Shown piece after piece: positions 36,229-62,096 of a stretch of DNA of 64,000 nucleotides. Numbering within the stretch: position 1 is the first letter of the stretch; the number at the start of each line of letters is the position of its first letter. Under the pieces are notes generated by a model. The model searched no databases. It was given only the letters and a program-made list of their open reading frames with translations, and was not told where the DNA came from. The stretch spans positions 620,001 to 684,000 of the forward strand of contig JAWARJ010000001.1 in assembly GCA_038893495.1 (NCBI GenBank), written 5' to 3'. Source of the stretch: Thermoproteus sp. (GTDB lineage: Archaea > Thermoproteota > Thermoprotei > Thermoproteales > Thermoproteaceae). A program made the translations under genes and the position numbers.

Positions 36229-36392
36229 CCGAAGCCCAGTTCCCTCGAACGGGCTTATCGGAACTATCTTACTGCCTGGTGGTTAACGAGACATTAGGCT
36301 AAGCGATTCGGTCATTGAGGGCAGATATAAACCTTGAGACGAGCCATAGGCGGCTATGACATTCGGTCTCTGGTATATGTGTCGTGAAGAAT

Positions 36393-37454
36393 CTAATCGC
36401 CGCATGATGTCATAAGTCTCCTTAACGCCAGCTCCTCAAGTACATTTAATTCCTCTATTACATCCTTGTAAATGTTTTGATAATACTTAGAGATATTGTC
36501 AACCAATTGCGGTATTAACCGTCTCAATTCACTGATATTGGGTGCATTAAATCCAACAAACCATAGATTAATCCACGATAAGTTATTTAGTAACTCATCT
36601 ATATATTTCGTGGCGAATTTTACGAATTCATTAACATATCTATCAGGGATACCCTTGCCCTTTAATTCCTCGACCCTCTTCTTCAGTTCGCCGTAGAACT
36701 GCTCACCATCTACGTCGATATTATATGACCTTAAGATGGCTTTAAGCCTCTTAAATAATTCAGACCTCAGCTCTTCCTTGTTTTTAGCCTCTATATGGCC
36801 TAGAAACACATAGCCAGATATGTCTCTACAGTATTTTAGATATATGTTATATCCACTCTGTAGCTTTTTTATTAAAATTTTAATGCCAGTTTCCAGATTA
36901 GGTTGCGATATACCGTTTATTTCTAAAACTTCAGTGCAATTTCTATACTTCATCTTAGTCAATAGCACAACGGCAACTAGCAAATTACGAATTTCAAGGG
37001 TTCCGTTCTGTAGGGCGTTAACTTCACCATGTATCTGCCTAAGGATATCATCAAGATAGTTCTGCATTAGTGAGCCTACACGAATAACGAGGTCATCTCT
37101 ACCCGAATTATTATATACATAATTTATAGCTTCATTCATAGCTTTTTTGGCATTTTTAATTCCAAATAGTACTAGGTAATCTTTAAAGTAATCAAGCACA
37201 TGGTGAGCGATAGCTATTTTATGTGCTATTTCGAAACATTTATCTAAACCATACTTATTAAGCATTAAATGTATGATCTCAATCATATAATCCCATTTTT
37301 TATAAATCTCAGGACATTTAATACCGAGGTCGTGGCAATACGCGATATCTATTAGGTAATCAACTATGCGGCCAATATATAGAACATCACAGTTAATCGC
37401 CTCAGAGCTAAAGATTAGGCGATATACATATTTATGCGCTAACCAGCTAGGCAT
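36393..37454 (-). CDS. HD-domain-like protein of the island
   Basis: A 353-aa, AT-rich-coded protein. The N-terminal 100 residues match an HD phosphohydrolase pattern: H7 (PSWLAHKY), H41-D42 (AYCHDLG), H84-H85 (AIAHHVLDY) and D88. The remaining 250 residues are helical with no motif I know. HD proteins cut phosphate esters, including nucleotides and nucleic acids. It lies 55 bases downstream of the winged-helix gene on the same strand and is probably cotranscribed. Only a weak promoter-like sequence precedes the ATG. Confidence 0.6.
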   Translation of the reverse strand: MPSWLAHKYVYRLIFSSEAINCDVLYIGRIVDYLIDIAYCHDLGIKCPEIYKKWDYMIEIIHLMLNKYGLDKCFEIAHKIAIAHHVLDYFKDYLVLFGIKNAKKAMNEAINYVYNNSGRDDLVIRVGSLMQNYLDDILRQIHGEVNALQNGTLEIRNLLVAVVLLTKMKYRNCTEVLEINGISQPNLETGIKILIKKLQSGYNIYLKYCRDISGYVFLGHIEAKNKEELRSELFKRLKAILRSYNIDVDGEQFYGELKKRVEELKGKGIPDRYVNEFVKFATKYIDELLNNLSWINLWFVGFNAPNISELRRLIPQLVDNISKYYQNIYKDVIEELNVLEELALRRLMTSCGD

Positions 37455-37509
37455 CTCGTGCCATCCTTATCCGCACGTCCTTTTTTGTCCTCATGGCTTG
37501 TGCGTGACA

Positions 37510-38505
37510 TTATACGAGATTATTGTCATCCGTCAAGTTACTTATCGCTAAGTTTAATTCGTCTATTCCCACCTCCTCCAACCCTGGCACATTCACGCTG
37601 TTAATCAGCAACTGAGGAACCTCGTATTTGTAGCCAAAGTCGTTGAAGTAGATCTTGCCATCCCTCGAATTGGTCATGACGAAGAGTCCCAACAGGAGCT
37701 TCGTGTTATAGAGCGCCCTAAGCGTTGCGTCTATCATAAACAGGTGGTAGAACGCATATGTGTAGGCCAGCCTGACGAAGAAGCTCGACGAGGATTCCAA
37801 GTCCATATACCGGCCGATGTACGAAATCACTGAATGTTTGTCCGCAATGGCTTCGAGCTCAGACTTTGACGGATAGATCATAGCGGACCAGTAGTCGACC
37901 TCCAAGAAGTCGCCCAGCGAGCCGTCACGGCTAGGCTCCTTGCCGATTGCGACTACCGTGTTTATGCCCGGCGGGTCGAAGAAATTCAGCACGTAGGCGT
38001 CATCGGTCTCGTACCAGAACTTCGTCCAGCCCGGCTCGCTCAGCTTCTTTTCAAGCATCTCGGAGTTGACGTAGTCGATCCTCTCAACCGCTTCGTCGAT
38101 TCCCAAGGCCTCTATCAAGTCGTAGCCGCCGAACTGCCTGTCGGCCTTCGGCGCTATCCAGTGCATGAATGTAAAGTCCAGGTGGCCGCCCGCCAGCATC
38201 TCCCTATCTCTCCTGAGGAGTTGCGCCAGCTCGTTCAGAGACCTGTCGAGAAGCACCAAGATATCTACATTCCTACTCATGTACCTCAGACCGTCCTCCG
38301 TGATAACATACCTGCCGGCGCTGTCCTTCCTGACCAAACCGTCGCTCACTAAATCCTTGAGTATATTGCCAAGAGCCCCCTTAGACTTACCTCCAGGACT
38401 ACCAACACGTCTATAAAATTCAAGGAGCTCGCTAAACGAGGCGGAGCCGCCACGTCCCCTAATGTACCGGAGCAACAGGACCTTGACGACAGGTCTCCTA
38501 GGCAT
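37510..38505 (-). CDS. Island winged-helix regulator candidate
   Basis: A 331-aa protein. Residues 1-75 form a winged helix (VKVLLLRYIRGRGGSASFSE, then GALGNILKDLVSDGLVRK and the wing DSAGRYVITEDGL). Residues 76-331 are an unrecognised globular domain. The gene starts at the divergent promoter that carries four TAGAAC-type half-sites, so it may control itself and the operon on the other strand. A TATA-like gtttatta (plus-strand about 38526-38533) lies about 24 bases before the ATG. Confidence 0.65.
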   Translation of the reverse strand: MPRRPVVKVLLLRYIRGRGGSASFSELLEFYRRVGSPGGKSKGALGNILKDLVSDGLVRKDSAGRYVITEDGLRYMSRNVDILVLLDRSLNELAQLLRRDREMLAGGHLDFTFMHWIAPKADRQFGGYDLIEALGIDEAVERIDYVNSEMLEKKLSEPGWTKFWYETDDAYVLNFFDPPGINTVVAIGKEPSRDGSLGDFLEVDYWSAMIYPSKSELEAIADKHSVISYIGRYMDLESSSSFFVRLAYTYAFYHLFMIDATLRALYNTKLLLGLFVMTNSRDGKIYFNDFGYKYEVPQLLINSVNVPGLEEVGIDELNLAISNLTDDNNLV

Positions 38506-38653
38506 GTGACTATAAAACGGGATCCTAATAAACTTTTTTCTAGAACCACAAGATTAAAACATAGGGTTATTCGATAGATGAGTTCTAATTATTTTGTAAG
38601 TAGAACTATAGGTTCTACAAAAAATCTTATAAGGCCGCAAGTTGAGACGGGCA
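38506..38653. promoter_or_regulatory. Divergent island promoter with four TAGAAC/GTTCTA half-sites
   Basis: Half-sites: TAGAACC at 38541-38547, AGTTCTA at 38581-38587, GTAGAAC at 38600-38606, GTTCTAC at 38612-38618. The last two form a perfect 7-5-7 palindrome (38600-38618). It ends seven bases before the TATA-like tcttataagg (38625-38634) of the right operon. The 38541 site lies just upstream of the TATA-like box of the left gene. This is the layout of an archaeal operator. Confidence 0.65.
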
Positions 38654-39814
38654 ATGACAAGCAACGAGCAGTTTAGGTACTGGGACCCAAGCTGGTGGGA
38701 GAACTACTTCAAAAACGACCTATACAGCCTCTACAGGAGCCTTCACTGCCTAAATAAGTACAAGGATTTGATGATAAATGAAATAGAGAGTTCAAGCGAT
38801 TTGAGGGGCCTTCTTTCAAAGAACTATGAATTTTGGATCAAGGTATTTATGGGTGGGGTCGATGAGAAGTGCGTCAAGAAGGGCCAGATAACATATAGTT
38901 GCATACCTGATAATTCATTGGCTACATTCTTCAGAAAGGTGCTGAACATACAGCTCAGCGAGGACGATATGAACAAATATATCGCCAGAGTGATGAGTTA
39001 CGTTGACGCCAAGGAAGCAGGTAAAGGCATAAATCCGAGCTACAATAGAGACGATAGAGTAGGGCGGGACTTATACGAGAACCTGAAGGAACTGTTCAAA
39101 CTAATAGGGATGTCGGAGCCCGAGTGCAATATTGAGCTGAGGGATCCGATAGACGCAATCAACCTATATATAGAATATATCAATAATATCAGAAGGATAT
39201 TGCCGCTCTATAATGACGTTTCGTTTTTCATACAGTCGGTACACTCAACGCCGAGGTTCTACATAGAACAGGTTTATGGCGGCGAAATATTTAGCGACAA
39301 AATACGGCAAATACTGCAAAACTACGGGATTAAGCTGAGGGTACTGATAGAAGCGCCTAAAGGGCTAGAGATGTATGATGTAATTGGTTATGAGCCGAAC
39401 TCCGTAGGGGAGATAGTAACGCATGTATTAATTAAGGCCTGGAACTACGCCAATCCAATAGTGCCGATAGCAAAAGGTCCCTCGATACGGTACAATGATT
39501 ATGTGAAAATCTACTTCAATGACGTTAATAATGATATTGTAAACTATTTAGGAAAAAAGTATTATTTAACATGTGATAGCGATATTAATAATATTGATTA
39601 TGCCATCGTCAAAATAGACAGTGGTATGCTGGAAAGAGTAAATGACCACCAAGTTAGAGTAGCGATGCCATGTATTGGGTATCAGTTAATACCATACATA
39701 CTGTTTGTTATTGCCTTCGCGAAAGCGATGTTTACCGGCTTAGTATTAATAGATGAGAGTGAAGAGAAAGGTAAATACACGATCAGTAGGTCTGCAATTT
39801 ATAAGCATGGTTAG
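38654..39814 (+). CDS. Island protein of unknown family, 386 aa
   Basis: Not recognised. The N-terminus is rich in aromatics (FRYWDPSWWENYF), the body is mixed helix/strand, and residues about 345-365 are hydrophobic (IPYILFVIAFAKAMFTGLVLI), perhaps a buried helix rather than a membrane anchor. Coding is AT-rich with Asn/Ile/Tyr bias. The ATG at 38654 is chosen because it follows the TATA-like box by 20 bases; TTG at 38642 is less likely. The next gene's ATG overlaps its last eight bases, so the two are translated together and likely interact. Confidence 0.65.
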   Translation: MTSNEQFRYWDPSWWENYFKNDLYSLYRSLHCLNKYKDLMINEIESSSDLRGLLSKNYEFWIKVFMGGVDEKCVKKGQITYSCIPDNSLATFFRKVLNIQLSEDDMNKYIARVMSYVDAKEAGKGINPSYNRDDRVGRDLYENLKELFKLIGMSEPECNIELRDPIDAINLYIEYINNIRRILPLYNDVSFFIQSVHSTPRFYIEQVYGGEIFSDKIRQILQNYGIKLRVLIEAPKGLEMYDVIGYEPNSVGEIVTHVLIKAWNYANPIVPIAKGPSIRYNDYVKIYFNDVNNDIVNYLGKKYYLTCDSDINNIDYAIVKIDSGMLERVNDHQVRVAMPCIGYQLIPYILFVIAFAKAMFTGLVLIDESEEKGKYTISRSAIYKHG

Positions 39815-41660
39815 TGAAGGGTCGAGAGTAGAGTCTCGGAGGATCTTCATACCATATCATCATGACGCTCCGAGCGATATTGAGAAACAAATTGAGCGCC
39901 TGTTTTGGTCTGCAGGTGTTCGCGAGGTTGAGGGCGGCTTTGAGGTAGCTATTGGCGTGGTGATGCCATCGATAAGGCCATATCCGCGACTCGGCGAGGC
40001 CACGGTGCTTGGTAGCGTCGCCCTGGAGAGCATCAAGCCCAATCCAATGCTGGTTAAGCTCGTCGAACCCATTATTAGGCCTCTAAACGGGATCTCGTTG
40101 GGAGATGTCGCCGTGAACGTCTCGGTGGAGGGCATGACTGCGATGCCGCGTCTAGGCGTCATTAAGCCCGTCATTAGGGATATGCAGTCGATTGCCATCG
40201 GCGATATGGTCAGCGTAGCCCCCAGGATCCAAGTGTTACCTATGCCTAGCTCCGTCGAGCCTCAAATAGCCCCCATCAGGGAAGTTCAACGCGCCGACGT
40301 CATTAGCGACACGCCTAAGATATCTACGCACGGCCACGGCACATCTGTAGTAAGGCCCCTAGTAAGGAGCGCGCAGACCCTAACGCCCACCGAAGCCATT
40401 ACGGACGTCCCGAAGGTTTTGGCGCCGGCTGGCTCATCGCAGACGCAAGCCTCGGCTGTGGAGCGTGCTAGCGACTACGACGAGTATACTTCGCTGGTTG
40501 ATAGTTTGGTTGAGGCCTACAGCAGGGATCCCATTCTTGGGTTTGTCGGTAGGGTTTTGGCCGATAGGCCTTTGCTAGTTATCGCCAGGAGGGGCGATTT
40601 TGACTATATCGAATTTCTCAAGAGACTCCTTAGGGAGGTCTTTAGGGTTAGGGTCGGCGGACTGCCGAGGCCTAGGCATGTGAGTAGGGAGTTGGCGTCT
40701 ATAGACGTAAACGACATGCCGAGCTACGAGTTGCTGGAGACGAAGGCGGGCGGCTACGTGTATGTGGTTGACGCCAGGGGCTTTAAGGCCGATAGCGAGG
40801 AGGATAGGAGGAGATTGGGTAGGCTACTCGCCTCTGTGGTGTTCACCAATAGGCTCCTCGAGCTGTTCTCACAGGGCTTTGGCTTTCTGGTGATATACCA
40901 AAACAAGGACCTGAGCGTAGCCCCGGCGCTTGGGCCCTACCAGAGGCCCGTTGTCGTTGAGGCTTCCAGTGAGTCGTTCTATAGGCGTGTCGCCAAGGTT
41001 ATGTGGGGCTTCGTTGAGGGAGTTGACGACGCACAGCTTGACTATTACGTTGTTGAGGCTGAGGACGAGTTCTACAAGGCGCTTGAGGGCGTTGTCAGGG
41101 ACTTTGACGTGTTTTTAGCCACAAGGCCTAACGCAGAGCCCGAGGGGCAAGGCTTAGGCGCCGAGTCGTCGCTACACTACCTCACCAAGGCCGCCGTTGT
41201 TAAATACCTAATCGACGAAATTGTCGGGGAGCTCGCCAGGAGCGGCTACGACCGGGAGAAAGCTCGCGATTTGGCGCTTAAGTGCGTAGATACCGAGCAT
41301 GTTGAGGGCAACGTCAGGTTTGATGTGTACGTTAGGCCCAACTGCGGGAGCCTCAGCGGCTTGGTTGTTGAAGTCGAGACGCTGTACGGCACTGGTACTG
41401 TTGTCCACAAGCTGGCGGACACGATAGAGAGTAGGTTAAAGGCCGGCGTTAATAAGCTGTGGATCGTTATACCGAACCCGACGTTCGCGATATATCTGCC
41501 GGAAATAGCCAGGCTGTGGCTCCGCTATAGGAGGATGTATGGAGACAAGCTGGAAGTGAAGACGTTGAGGATTAAGCCGGAGGAGAGCAAGGCGAAGATT
41601 GAGTTAATCGACGTGAGGGATGCGATTAGGGAAATAGTCGGCGCATACGAGAGTAGGTAG
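39807..41660 (+). CDS. Island protein: repeat linker plus PD-(D/E)XK-like C-terminus
   Basis: A 617-aa protein. Residues 1-50 form a small N-terminal region. Residues about 53-210 are a chain of degenerate repeats of about 30-35 residues rich in Pro, Ile and Val (I-x-x-GD-x-V-x-V...P-x-I-x-P-x-I-R). Residues 220-420 are globular. Residues 450-560 resemble a restriction-endonuclease fold: an E-x-x-x-H-x-x-x-K-type helix (ESSLHYLTKAAVVKYLI), D506 in RFDVYV, E522 and E524 in VVEVET, then a strand KLWIVIP. The Lys of a classical site is replaced by Thr. The ATG at 39807 overlaps the preceding gene by eight bases. Confidence 0.65.
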   Translation: MVSEGSRVESRRIFIPYHHDAPSDIEKQIERLFWSAGVREVEGGFEVAIGVVMPSIRPYPRLGEATVLGSVALESIKPNPMLVKLVEPIIRPLNGISLGDVAVNVSVEGMTAMPRLGVIKPVIRDMQSIAIGDMVSVAPRIQVLPMPSSVEPQIAPIREVQRADVISDTPKISTHGHGTSVVRPLVRSAQTLTPTEAITDVPKVLAPAGSSQTQASAVERASDYDEYTSLVDSLVEAYSRDPILGFVGRVLADRPLLVIARRGDFDYIEFLKRLLREVFRVRVGGLPRPRHVSRELASIDVNDMPSYELLETKAGGYVYVVDARGFKADSEEDRRRLGRLLASVVFTNRLLELFSQGFGFLVIYQNKDLSVAPALGPYQRPVVVEASSESFYRRVAKVMWGFVEGVDDAQLDYYVVEAEDEFYKALEGVVRDFDVFLATRPNAEPEGQGLGAESSLHYLTKAAVVKYLIDEIVGELARSGYDREKARDLALKCVDTEHVEGNVRFDVYVRPNCGSLSGLVVEVETLYGTGTVVHKLADTIESRLKAGVNKLWIVIPNPTFAIYLPEIARLWLRYRRMYGDKLEVKTLRIKPEESKAKIELIDVRDAIREIVGAYESR

Positions 41661-41676
41661 AGAGATGAGGCGTCCG

Positions 41677-42192
41677 TCAGCGCCTAGCTCTACTCCTACC
41701 GCGACGCCTTGGCTCTAGCGGGTTTAATGTCGGCTTTAGCTCATCTATCAGGCACTCCTCAATTTCTTTACGTTTTGAATTTACTTTTCTGGGCTCTAGA
41801 TCTTTAAGTTCATCGCATATAGCTACATATATGTCTAGTTGACCTATAAACGGCTTCAGTATCCGTTCTTTGATATAATCTTCTCTCTCCTTTGCATTCA
41901 TATTTCGCCAATTTTGTGGCAGTCTATCACAGAGATCATTATCGAATAGATAAATGAAGAACCTCACCACGCCCTCGGAGCCGCCTATGTGGGCCGCACA
42001 GTGCTCTTTGAGCCTACGCTTAACGTCGTTTGCTTCGCCCACATAGTATATCTGTTCCCCCTCGTAGAAAATATAGACGCCAGGCCCACTGACGTCGAAG
42101 TTCCCACAACTGACAACCCCAAACCTGCATCTACTGAGATCCAAACCAGCCCTATTCAGACACCTCCCCACCGCATCGCCTAGCCTATACAT
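41677..42192 (-). CDS. GIY-YIG domain protein of the island
   Basis: About 171 aa. A GIY-YIG nuclease core lies at about residues 37-65 (GVYIFYEGEQIYYVGEANDVKRRLKEH), where GVY and YYVGE stand for the GIY and YIG strands and the Arg/His/Glu helix follows. The C-terminal tail is strongly basic (PRRRGRSRARR), suited to nucleic-acid binding. The ATG at 42192 is preferred because a TATA-like gatttaag (42217-42224) is about 25 bases upstream; GTG at 42216 would sit on top of that box. Convergent with the 617-aa gene, 16 bases apart. Confidence 0.75.
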   Translation of the reverse strand: MYRLGDAVGRCLNRAGLDLSRCRFGVVSCGNFDVSGPGVYIFYEGEQIYYVGEANDVKRRLKEHCAAHIGGSEGVVRFFIYLFDNDLCDRLPQNWRNMNAKEREDYIKERILKPFIGQLDIYVAICDELKDLEPRKVNSKRKEIEECLIDELKPTLNPLEPRRRGRSRARR

Positions 42193-42232
42193 GACATAGT
42201 GCAGATCGTGCGTCACTTAAATCTTTCTATTC

Positions 42233-60752: not shown

Positions 60753-62096
60753 GTGGGCGAATTTATCGATAGGGAGAGGGAGCTGGCCTTGTTGGAGGAG
60801 CTGTGGCGTGCCCCCGGCGCCCAGTTGGTGGTGATATACGGGAGGAGGAGGGTGGGCAAGACCGCGCTGGTCAGGCGGTTTCTCTCGGGGAAGAGGGGGA
60901 TCTACCACATGTGCACGTTGGACACCATCGAGTGGAACGTGAGGGAGATGCTGAGGGCCTTGGCGGAGGCCGTGGGGGACTTCAAGATCTCGGCGCTTGA
61001 GCCTCGGCTTGACGTCTTCTTGAGGGTGCTGGCCGAGGCGGCGTCTGAGAGGTTTGCCTTCGTCATAGACGAGTTTCCGTACTGCGCCTCCGTGTATCCG
61101 CCTATGGCCTCCGTCATCCAGAGGGCGTGGGACATGTGGCTCTCCCAGACGAAGATCTTCATGGTCCTTGTGGGGTCGAGCGTGGGCATGATGGCCGAAC
61201 ACGTGCTCAGCAGGAAGGCTCCCCTCTACGGTAGGCGCACAGGCGGCATGAGGCTAGGCGAGCTGGAGCCCCACCACGTGGGCCGCTTCGTGGGCGGCGA
61301 TGCCGAGGACTGGTTTAAGGCGTGGGCCGTGGTGGGGGGAGTTCCCTACTACCTCAAGCTCTTCGTCCCGGGCCGCCCCGTGGACCTAGAGGTCAGGCGG
61401 CTCTTCTCCAAGGGCGGCCCCCTCTACGAGGAGCCTCTCTTCCTGTTGAGAGAGGAGCTACGGGAGCCCCGGATCTACATGGCCCTCTTGGAGGCGCTGG
61501 CGGCGGGGAGGACGAAGCTCGGCGAGGTGGCCCAATTCGCCGGCCTGTCGAGCGCCAAGGCCTCTAAGTACCTATGGAGGTTGCGGCAGTTGGACGTGGT
61601 GGATAGGGAGGAGGTATACGGCGTCAGGAGGAGCGGCCGCTATTACATCAAGGACAACCTCTTCGCCTTTTGGTTCCGCTTCGTATACCCCAACCTCTCT
61701 AGACTCGAGCTGGACGAGCCCGAGGCCGTCTTCGCCGACGAGAAGCTGGACGCCTACTACGGCGAGATGTTCGAGCGCCTCGTCAGGCTGATCTCGCCGA
61801 GGGTGTTCGGCGTACGATTTTATAAATATATAAAAGGCCAAATAGATATAGATCTAGCTGGCGAGGCGGGCGGCTGTAGGATCTACGGGGAGGTCAAGTG
61901 GAGCAAAGAGGTCGATCCCATCCGGGAGTACAGGAGGCTGGCGGGTTTAAAGCAGGGCGATGCGTACCTAGTGGTGGCCCGAGGCTTCTCCAAGCCTCCA
62001 CAGGAGGGCGTAGCGGCGGTGACGCTTAGGGACCTCTACCACGCCCTGGAGACGGGGAGGAAAATCCAGTTGTGTCCGCGGCGCCAAGCTTTATAG
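60753..62096 (+). CDS. Archaeal ATPase (AAA, DUF234-type)
   Basis: A 447-aa ATPase. Walker A is GRRRVGKT (about residues 30-37) and Walker B is FVIDEFPY (about 104-111). A winged-helix-like part KLGEVAQFAGLSSAKASKYLWRL (about 253-275) follows, then a C-terminal nuclease-like DUF234 region with CRIYGEVKWSKEV (D/E...E-x-K). The family is expanded in Thermoproteales and its role is unknown. Start GTG at 60753 follows TATA-like tttttatac by about 20 bases. A decayed relative lies at 59340-59616. Confidence 0.85.
   Translation: MGEFIDRERELALLEELWRAPGAQLVVIYGRRRVGKTALVRRFLSGKRGIYHMCTLDTIEWNVREMLRALAEAVGDFKISALEPRLDVFLRVLAEAASERFAFVIDEFPYCASVYPPMASVIQRAWDMWLSQTKIFMVLVGSSVGMMAEHVLSRKAPLYGRRTGGMRLGELEPHHVGRFVGGDAEDWFKAWAVVGGVPYYLKLFVPGRPVDLEVRRLFSKGGPLYEEPLFLLREELREPRIYMALLEALAAGRTKLGEVAQFAGLSSAKASKYLWRLRQLDVVDREEVYGVRRSGRYYIKDNLFAFWFRFVYPNLSRLELDEPEAVFADEKLDAYYGEMFERLVRLISPRVFGVRFYKYIKGQIDIDLAGEAGGCRIYGEVKWSKEVDPIREYRRLAGLKQGDAYLVVARGFSKPPQEGVAAVTLRDLYHALETGRKIQLCPRRQAL

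Follow-up and report, generated by a model that had tools for sequence, protein, structure and literature searches.

Do the genes of the AT-rich island at 36.2-42.2 kb in a 64,000-nucleotide stretch of Thermoproteus sp. DNA (assembly GCA_038893495.1, contig JAWARJ010000001.1, positions 620,001-684,000; hereafter, the window) form one system, and what might that system do? The island lies between tenA and an APC permease gene, and a preliminary description had read its five open reading frames (ORFs) as a five-gene accessory system with its own regulator. All five ORFs are present: the divergent gene pairs R-H (a regulator and an HD-like protein) and A-B, and a GIY-YIG gene convergent to B at the right edge. 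We found that the conserved unit is the two-gene operon A-B, not a fixed five-gene system. A-B is an undescribed gene pair and, because it moves between distant archaea and is often found among antiviral genes, probably a new candidate defence module.

We assessed the distribution of A and B by sequence searches. Among 45 Thermoproteales genomes, B was found in 6 and A in 8, and wherever both genes are intact, they are adjacent and in the same order. Across Thermoproteota, profiles detected B in 29 of 398 genomes and A in 38; A was present in 25 of the 29 genomes with B, compared with 2.8 expected (P 4e-26, a value that ignores phylogeny). The two genes also accompany each other where they are not linked, as in Pyrodictiaceae. 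At three loci scored as A-only by the main profile (L127, L128, and L129), B adjoins A and was detected by a broader profile only, while four genomes (G144, G310, G314, and G328) carry A without detectable B. Further relatives come from Archaeoglobaceae, Alkanophaga, a euryarchaeote, Natrialba, Lokiarchaeota, and bacterium HR23, and directly upstream lies A or a shorter A-like gene. Many loci consist of A-B alone, without the other island genes. In G281 (L070:1032-7032), three tandem A-like ORFs precede one B, an expansion of A.

The preliminary description knew of no matching system, and the libraries that we searched likewise gave no match to any described one. H, A, and B had no convincing match in Pfam, NCBIfam, PADLOC, or PHROGs. 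With PADLOC 2.0, the best match of A was LmuA (E 0.014) and B had none, and profiles of A and B searched against PDB sequences returned nothing useful. Literature searches likewise found no description of the pair.

We then analyzed the domains of B. The AlphaFold2 model, built from 15 rows, had a mean predicted local distance difference test score (pLDDT) of 65. Residues 50-219 scored below 50 and are predicted to be disordered; they form the repeat linker noted earlier in this 617-aa protein, with four units at residues 90-116, 119-141, 151-172, and 182-204. At the C-terminus (residues 455-590, pLDDT mostly 82-96), the model places helices at 455-478 and 532-545 and strands at 494-500, 503-509, 519-523, and 550-554, which is the alpha-beta-beta-beta-alpha-beta order of PD-(D/E)XK nucleases. 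An initial alignment (A1) proved too heterogeneous to be scanned for patterns. Among 27 divergent B proteins, E453, H457, K461, and D506 (617-aa numbering; E220, H224, K228, and D273 of alignment A8) are invariant. The remaining predicted site comprises E497 and E522-x-E524, with DxK in place of ExE in Sulfolobales forms. SfsA (4dap), which is of the PD-(D/E)XK type, was among the structural rows for this end (Z 5.6, root-mean-square deviation 4.1, 122 residues). By its core topology and acidic catalytic residues, the C-terminus is a predicted PD-(D/E)XK domain, as first suggested from the sequence, and B is a putative nuclease.

The other structural rows are filled by AAA+ chains. The middle of B resembles those of CDC48, NVL, and a clamp loader over 132-171 residues with Z up to 6.7, suggesting an AAA+-like fold in a Z range that can mean mere common arrangement. 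The Walker A motif GxxxxGK[ST] is found in none of the 27 B rows, and ATPase activity of this domain is therefore not expected. The model of A (pLDDT 80.9) shows a helical domain followed by two winged-helix-like parts, of which the first (residues about 185-278) is weakly MarR-like (Z 4.2 over 185-276) and the second (about 283-390) weakly CzrA/CodY-like (Z 3-4 over 281-389). Foldseek alone gave no match better than E 1 for A, and none of its conserved residues points to an enzyme. The model points to A as a possible DNA-binding protein.

We compared the island with the corresponding site in congeners. The host genome is a single contig of 1.995 Mb. The window has a GC content of 58%, and the GC dip spans 36.0-42.2 kb; within it, the AT-richness is uneven, with 35% GC in H, 41% in A, 47% in the GIY-YIG gene, 52% in R, 55% in B, and 31% in the R-A intergenic region. 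In three of the five congeners compared (G038, G039, and G042), tenA and the APC permease gene are adjacent and converge, with 617-999 bp between them, and this gap holds an ORF of 211-215 aa that begins at the tenA end and that we take to be a second tenA-like gene. Around the tenA end, about 30 bp of the window match the congeners, and island sequence follows; the second tenA-like gene was not found elsewhere within the window. In G041, the two flanking genes lie apart. A, B, R, and H were found in none of the five congeners searched. The island is an acquisition, and the site in these three congeners is empty of it; both the GC content and the congener comparison agree with the accessory, AT-richer island first described. 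The coupling of A and B by an 8-base overlap (39807-39814) also stands if B starts at 39807. The features are listed in Table 1.

Table 1. Genes, control region, and B domains of the island (window positions)
Feature	Positions	Strand	Description
H	36393..37454	-	353 aa; HD-like accessory; second gene of the R-H operon
R	37510..38505	-	331 aa; regulator; N-terminal winged helix-turn-helix
Divergent R/A control region	38506..38641		four TAGAAC boxes at 38541, 38582, 38601, 38612
A	38642..39814	+	390 aa; partner of B; helical N-terminus, then two winged-helix-like parts
B	39807..41660 (or from 39753)	+	617 aa (635 aa); N-terminal beta-alpha-beta-beta, linker, AAA+-like, predicted PD-(D/E)XK
B disordered repeat linker, residues 50-219	39954..40463	+	four units; predicted disorder
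B AAA+-like domain with lid, residues about 247-440	40545..41126	+	suggested by structural rows; no Walker A
B PD-(D/E)XK domain, residues about 451-598	41157..41600	+	predicted from conserved residues and model topology
GIY-YIG protein	41677..42216	-	179 aa; convergent neighbour; PF01541

A tree of B was built from the middle and nuclease parts; its deep branches and long rows are poorly settled. G299, from a family outside Thermoproteales that also contains the A-only genomes G144 and G310, groups with Caldivirga (support 100/99). G062 has two B genes, one of which is sister to Alkanophaga (100/100), beside a metagenome-assembled genome (MAG) of Archaeoglobaceae (99/95), while the syntenic Pyrodictiaceae copies of B form their own clade. 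B has moved horizontally between orders and phyla.

We next examined the regulator. R residues 9-84 gave weak matches to MarR_2, HTH_45, and phrog_2440, and its C-terminal domain carries a conserved F[FD]xPPxxN-like motif. Homologues of R flank A-B in G003, G006, G015, and G030, and in G005. At the last of these (L036:7300-8561), R is split into two ORFs, A is cut to 118 aa, and one operator box remains; because R is split and A truncated, the system there is decaying. The 136 bp R/A region contains four TAGAAC/GTTCTA boxes, which 0 of 20,000 shuffles reached for that box; the box was chosen after inspection, and some 6-mer reached four copies in 105 of 2,000 shuffles of the region. With the box fixed on the window, four homologous control regions contained 10 copies, compared with 0.42 expected from dinucleotide shuffles (0 of 3,000). 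Because the window test picked the box post hoc, the count in the four other loci is the stronger test. The predicted TAGAAC operator is conserved across genera at five loci, and R may regulate through these boxes. This footprint across genera is the best support for the dedicated operator proposed earlier and, with the linkage of R in Thermoproteales, upholds the proposal of a dedicated regulator predicted to bind it. A scan of the control region for sigma-70-type promoters gave background level, and the sigma-70 consensus is irrelevant for archaea. A DNA hairpin in the control region was also considered and was not convincing (z -1.7).

Genes near A-B in other genomes were then inspected. 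HerA-NurA pairs adjoin A-B in Vulcanisaeta and Caldivirga (L029 and L030). A methylase lies beside A-B at L030, together with a DrmD/HmaA-like helicase, and at L079; it was seen at these two loci only. In G186 (L081:2379-11538), A-B shares its locus with an Argonaute (821 aa) and a TmtA/sacsin-like ATPase (958 aa). A GajA-like protein is encoded near A-B at L085, and PDC-S37 at L101. No csm6 was recognised with A-B, and most A-B genomes have no HerA-NurA beside the pair. Defence-like surroundings are found near A-B elsewhere, in the form of HerA-NurA, Argonaute, methylases, and helicases, and support the defence-type reading of the preliminary description. Moreover, a proteasome-like Ntn hydrolase gene lies beside B at four loci of different lineages (L082:2944-3762, L083:8913-9734, L092:3094-3891, and L100:11160-11939), where the peptidase and the nuclease module may belong together. 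The Vulcanisaeta island at L029 that holds A-B and HerA-NurA also contains a very divergent second paralogue of B (557 aa; L029:388-2061) and a 468-aa gene of unknown kind (L029:5905-7311).

Defence is the most likely role of A-B, in view of its patchy presence, transfer, divergence, own regulator, predicted nuclease site, and neighbours, and we give this role slightly better than an even chance. We propose that a mobile nuclease module of two genes is present in the island as an acquired copy under regulation. A would be a non-enzymatic DNA-binding or sensor subunit that senses invading DNA or the state of infection, and B would be the effector, its dead AAA+-like domain serving as a platform for binding or relay. 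This domain and the long flexible linker would tether the PD-(D/E)XK nuclease, and B, once recruited, would cut the nucleic acid of viruses or plasmids. R would govern A-B, R itself, and H through the TAGAAC boxes of the shared control region, such that the nuclease is produced only on demand, and H, or the HExxH peptidase-like protein in Caldivirga, may modulate A-B. More tentatively, with the balance somewhat against so complete an account, A-B could be an unnamed immune module, archaea-wide and rarely bacterial, that combines a winged-helix sensor with a pseudo-AAA+ nuclease and sometimes an Ntn hydrolase, is served in Thermoproteales by a conserved regulator and operator, and was domesticated as a core pair in lineages such as Pyrodictiaceae.

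Several observations weigh against this proposal. The PADLOC neighbours of A-B were chosen by eye, and in a control, the same cut-off also gave PADLOC matches for 2 of 10 ordinary proteins of the window; for both reasons, the neighbours are support and not proof. The Z scores of the AAA+-like part of B and the winged-helix parts of A are too low to tell kinship from a common arrangement. No copy of A-B was found in the viral, phage, or plasmid collections IMG/VR, INPHARED, and PLSDB, where the pattern search of IMG/VR could miss divergent copies, and an origin from a virus, phage, or plasmid was rejected. Finally, B in Pyrodictiaceae and A alone in four genomes have conserved chromosomal surroundings that include no defence genes, which is what a housekeeping gene would show. 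In Pyrodictiaceae, B is a lone gene in a conserved context, and the same genome carries A at a distance of 0.3-0.7 Mb; the family label of G062, G231, and G248 rests on a match of gene context to a Pyrodictium delaneyi MAG (L098). The preliminary description had held that single, unlinked homologues or core genes syntenic in all relatives would speak against an accessory system, and this applies in part: single A-like or B-like genes occur at conserved positions in Pyrodictiaceae and some other Thermoproteota.

These syntenic copies favour another reading, which we consider unlikely but the strongest of the alternatives, namely that A-B is a complex for DNA repair, recombination, or chromosome maintenance, core in some lineages and accessory in others. 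Syntenic B without adjoining A in Pyrodictiaceae, syntenic A in G144, G310, G314, and G328, and the HerA-NurA links, which would then reflect shared work on DNA ends, all fit such a complex. However, about 90% of the Thermoproteota genomes searched, all five congeners among them, lack A-B, its transfer crosses phyla, its divergence is extreme, and the HerA-NurA pairs in question sit in clusters with other defence-type genes. The lineages with a single syntenic A or B would show which came first, an immune module that was later domesticated or a repair complex that was later recruited to defence.

It is improbable that the island is part of an integrated plasmid-like element in which A-B serves maintenance (partition, a toxin-antitoxin-like function, or entry exclusion) and not host defence. 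The island is small and AT-rich and has a control region of its own. Directly downstream of B in Caldivirga sp. MU80 lie a ParA gene and a small ribbon-helix-helix-looking gene (L124:263-1528), a pair resembling those of plasmid partition. However, ParA was seen at this one locus only, and the absence of A-B from the plasmid and viral collections also argues against such an element. In addition, no integrase or replication gene was recognised among the ORFs of the island, and no terminal or attachment-type repeats and no tRNA were found flanking it.

The other island genes were compared with A-B in the same genomes. H carries the residues H7, H41-D42, H84, and D88, an H...HD...D metal motif common to three remote homologues, and no HD profile was among its Pfam, NCBIfam, and PHROGs matches; the label HD-like is supported by the motif and not by a family profile. 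Homologues of H occur at L031:12443-13252 (G030, divergent from R-A-B) and at L082:2275-2805 (G161, in an A-A-B cluster), with no match at the other Thermoproteales A-B loci searched. In Caldivirga, an HExxH protein takes over the role of H and is encoded by the first gene of the A-B operon. H is an exchangeable accessory of A-B. The GIY-YIG protein, convergent at the right edge as described, is the sole island protein above its Pfam gathering score (PF01541, E 8e-6, 26.5 bits against a cut-off of 22.6). Its gene occurs in 16 of the 45 Thermoproteales genomes, mostly without A-B; it lies 1.4 Mb from A-B in Vulcanisaeta (G015), by genes resembling cas genes, and adjoins HerA-NurA in G025. The GIY-YIG gene is an independent gene. 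Joint action of R, H, A, B, and GIY-YIG, as the preliminary description had it, is very improbable, for although H-like genes occur at two other A-B loci and GIY-YIG is convergent to B, 1.6 kb downstream, in Caldivirga sp. MU80 (contigs C41 and C22, joined through an exact 18-nt overlap, C22 starting with the B C-terminus), R is linked to A-B only in Thermoproteales, H is missing at most A-B loci, and GIY-YIG is scattered as above.

Paralogues of R were also observed before a different large operon, at L038 (129-12436) and in the right part of L029 (11618-17999), where they carry another box, GCGCGAAC. The same HExxH protein as in Caldivirga fronts this operon together with the R paralogue. 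The operon encodes proteins of 1,118 aa, 427 aa, 989 aa (DpdJ/helicase-like), 910 aa, and 256 aa, and it too has the look of a defence system not yet described.

We further compared A-B, as a candidate defence module, with known systems. Few defence systems of hyperthermophilic Thermoproteota besides CRISPR have, to our knowledge, been studied. As a widespread, unannotated predicted nuclease pair with a partner, active-site residues, a regulator, and an operator, A-B offers concrete targets for test. Like Shedu, Mrr-like, NERD, and other PD-(D/E)XK defence nucleases, B has a predicted terminal PD-(D/E)XK domain on an otherwise variable protein and keeps the catalytic residues, but it differs from them in its own middle domain, its constant partner A, and the absence of a profile match. 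In the archaeal ATPase_2-DUF234 architecture, AAA+, winged-helix, and PD-(D/E)XK-like parts are combined. A-B has the same three kinds of domain by prediction but splits them over two genes, lacks Walker A, and shows no profile relation; kinship of B with ArchATPase/DUF234 (ATPase_2) was rejected on hhalign probabilities of 0.8% and 0.1%. In BREX BrxB-PglZ, an inactive STAND NTPase with helix-turn-helix (HTH)-like parts acts with a nuclease effector (PMC12839542), and A-B is alike in outline, coupling a putative dead P-loop-like domain and HTH-like parts to a predicted nuclease effector. However, in B the dead domain and the nuclease form one protein, no sequence relation was seen, nothing indicates membership, and neither a methylase of the restriction-modification or BREX type (by ORF and profile check) nor PglX, PglZ, or BrxL is among the island proteins. 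Elsewhere in the window, at 60753-62096, lies a gene of the ATPase_2/DUF234 type, as judged by eye, which matches the PADLOC candidate PDC-S27 (E 1.5e-36).

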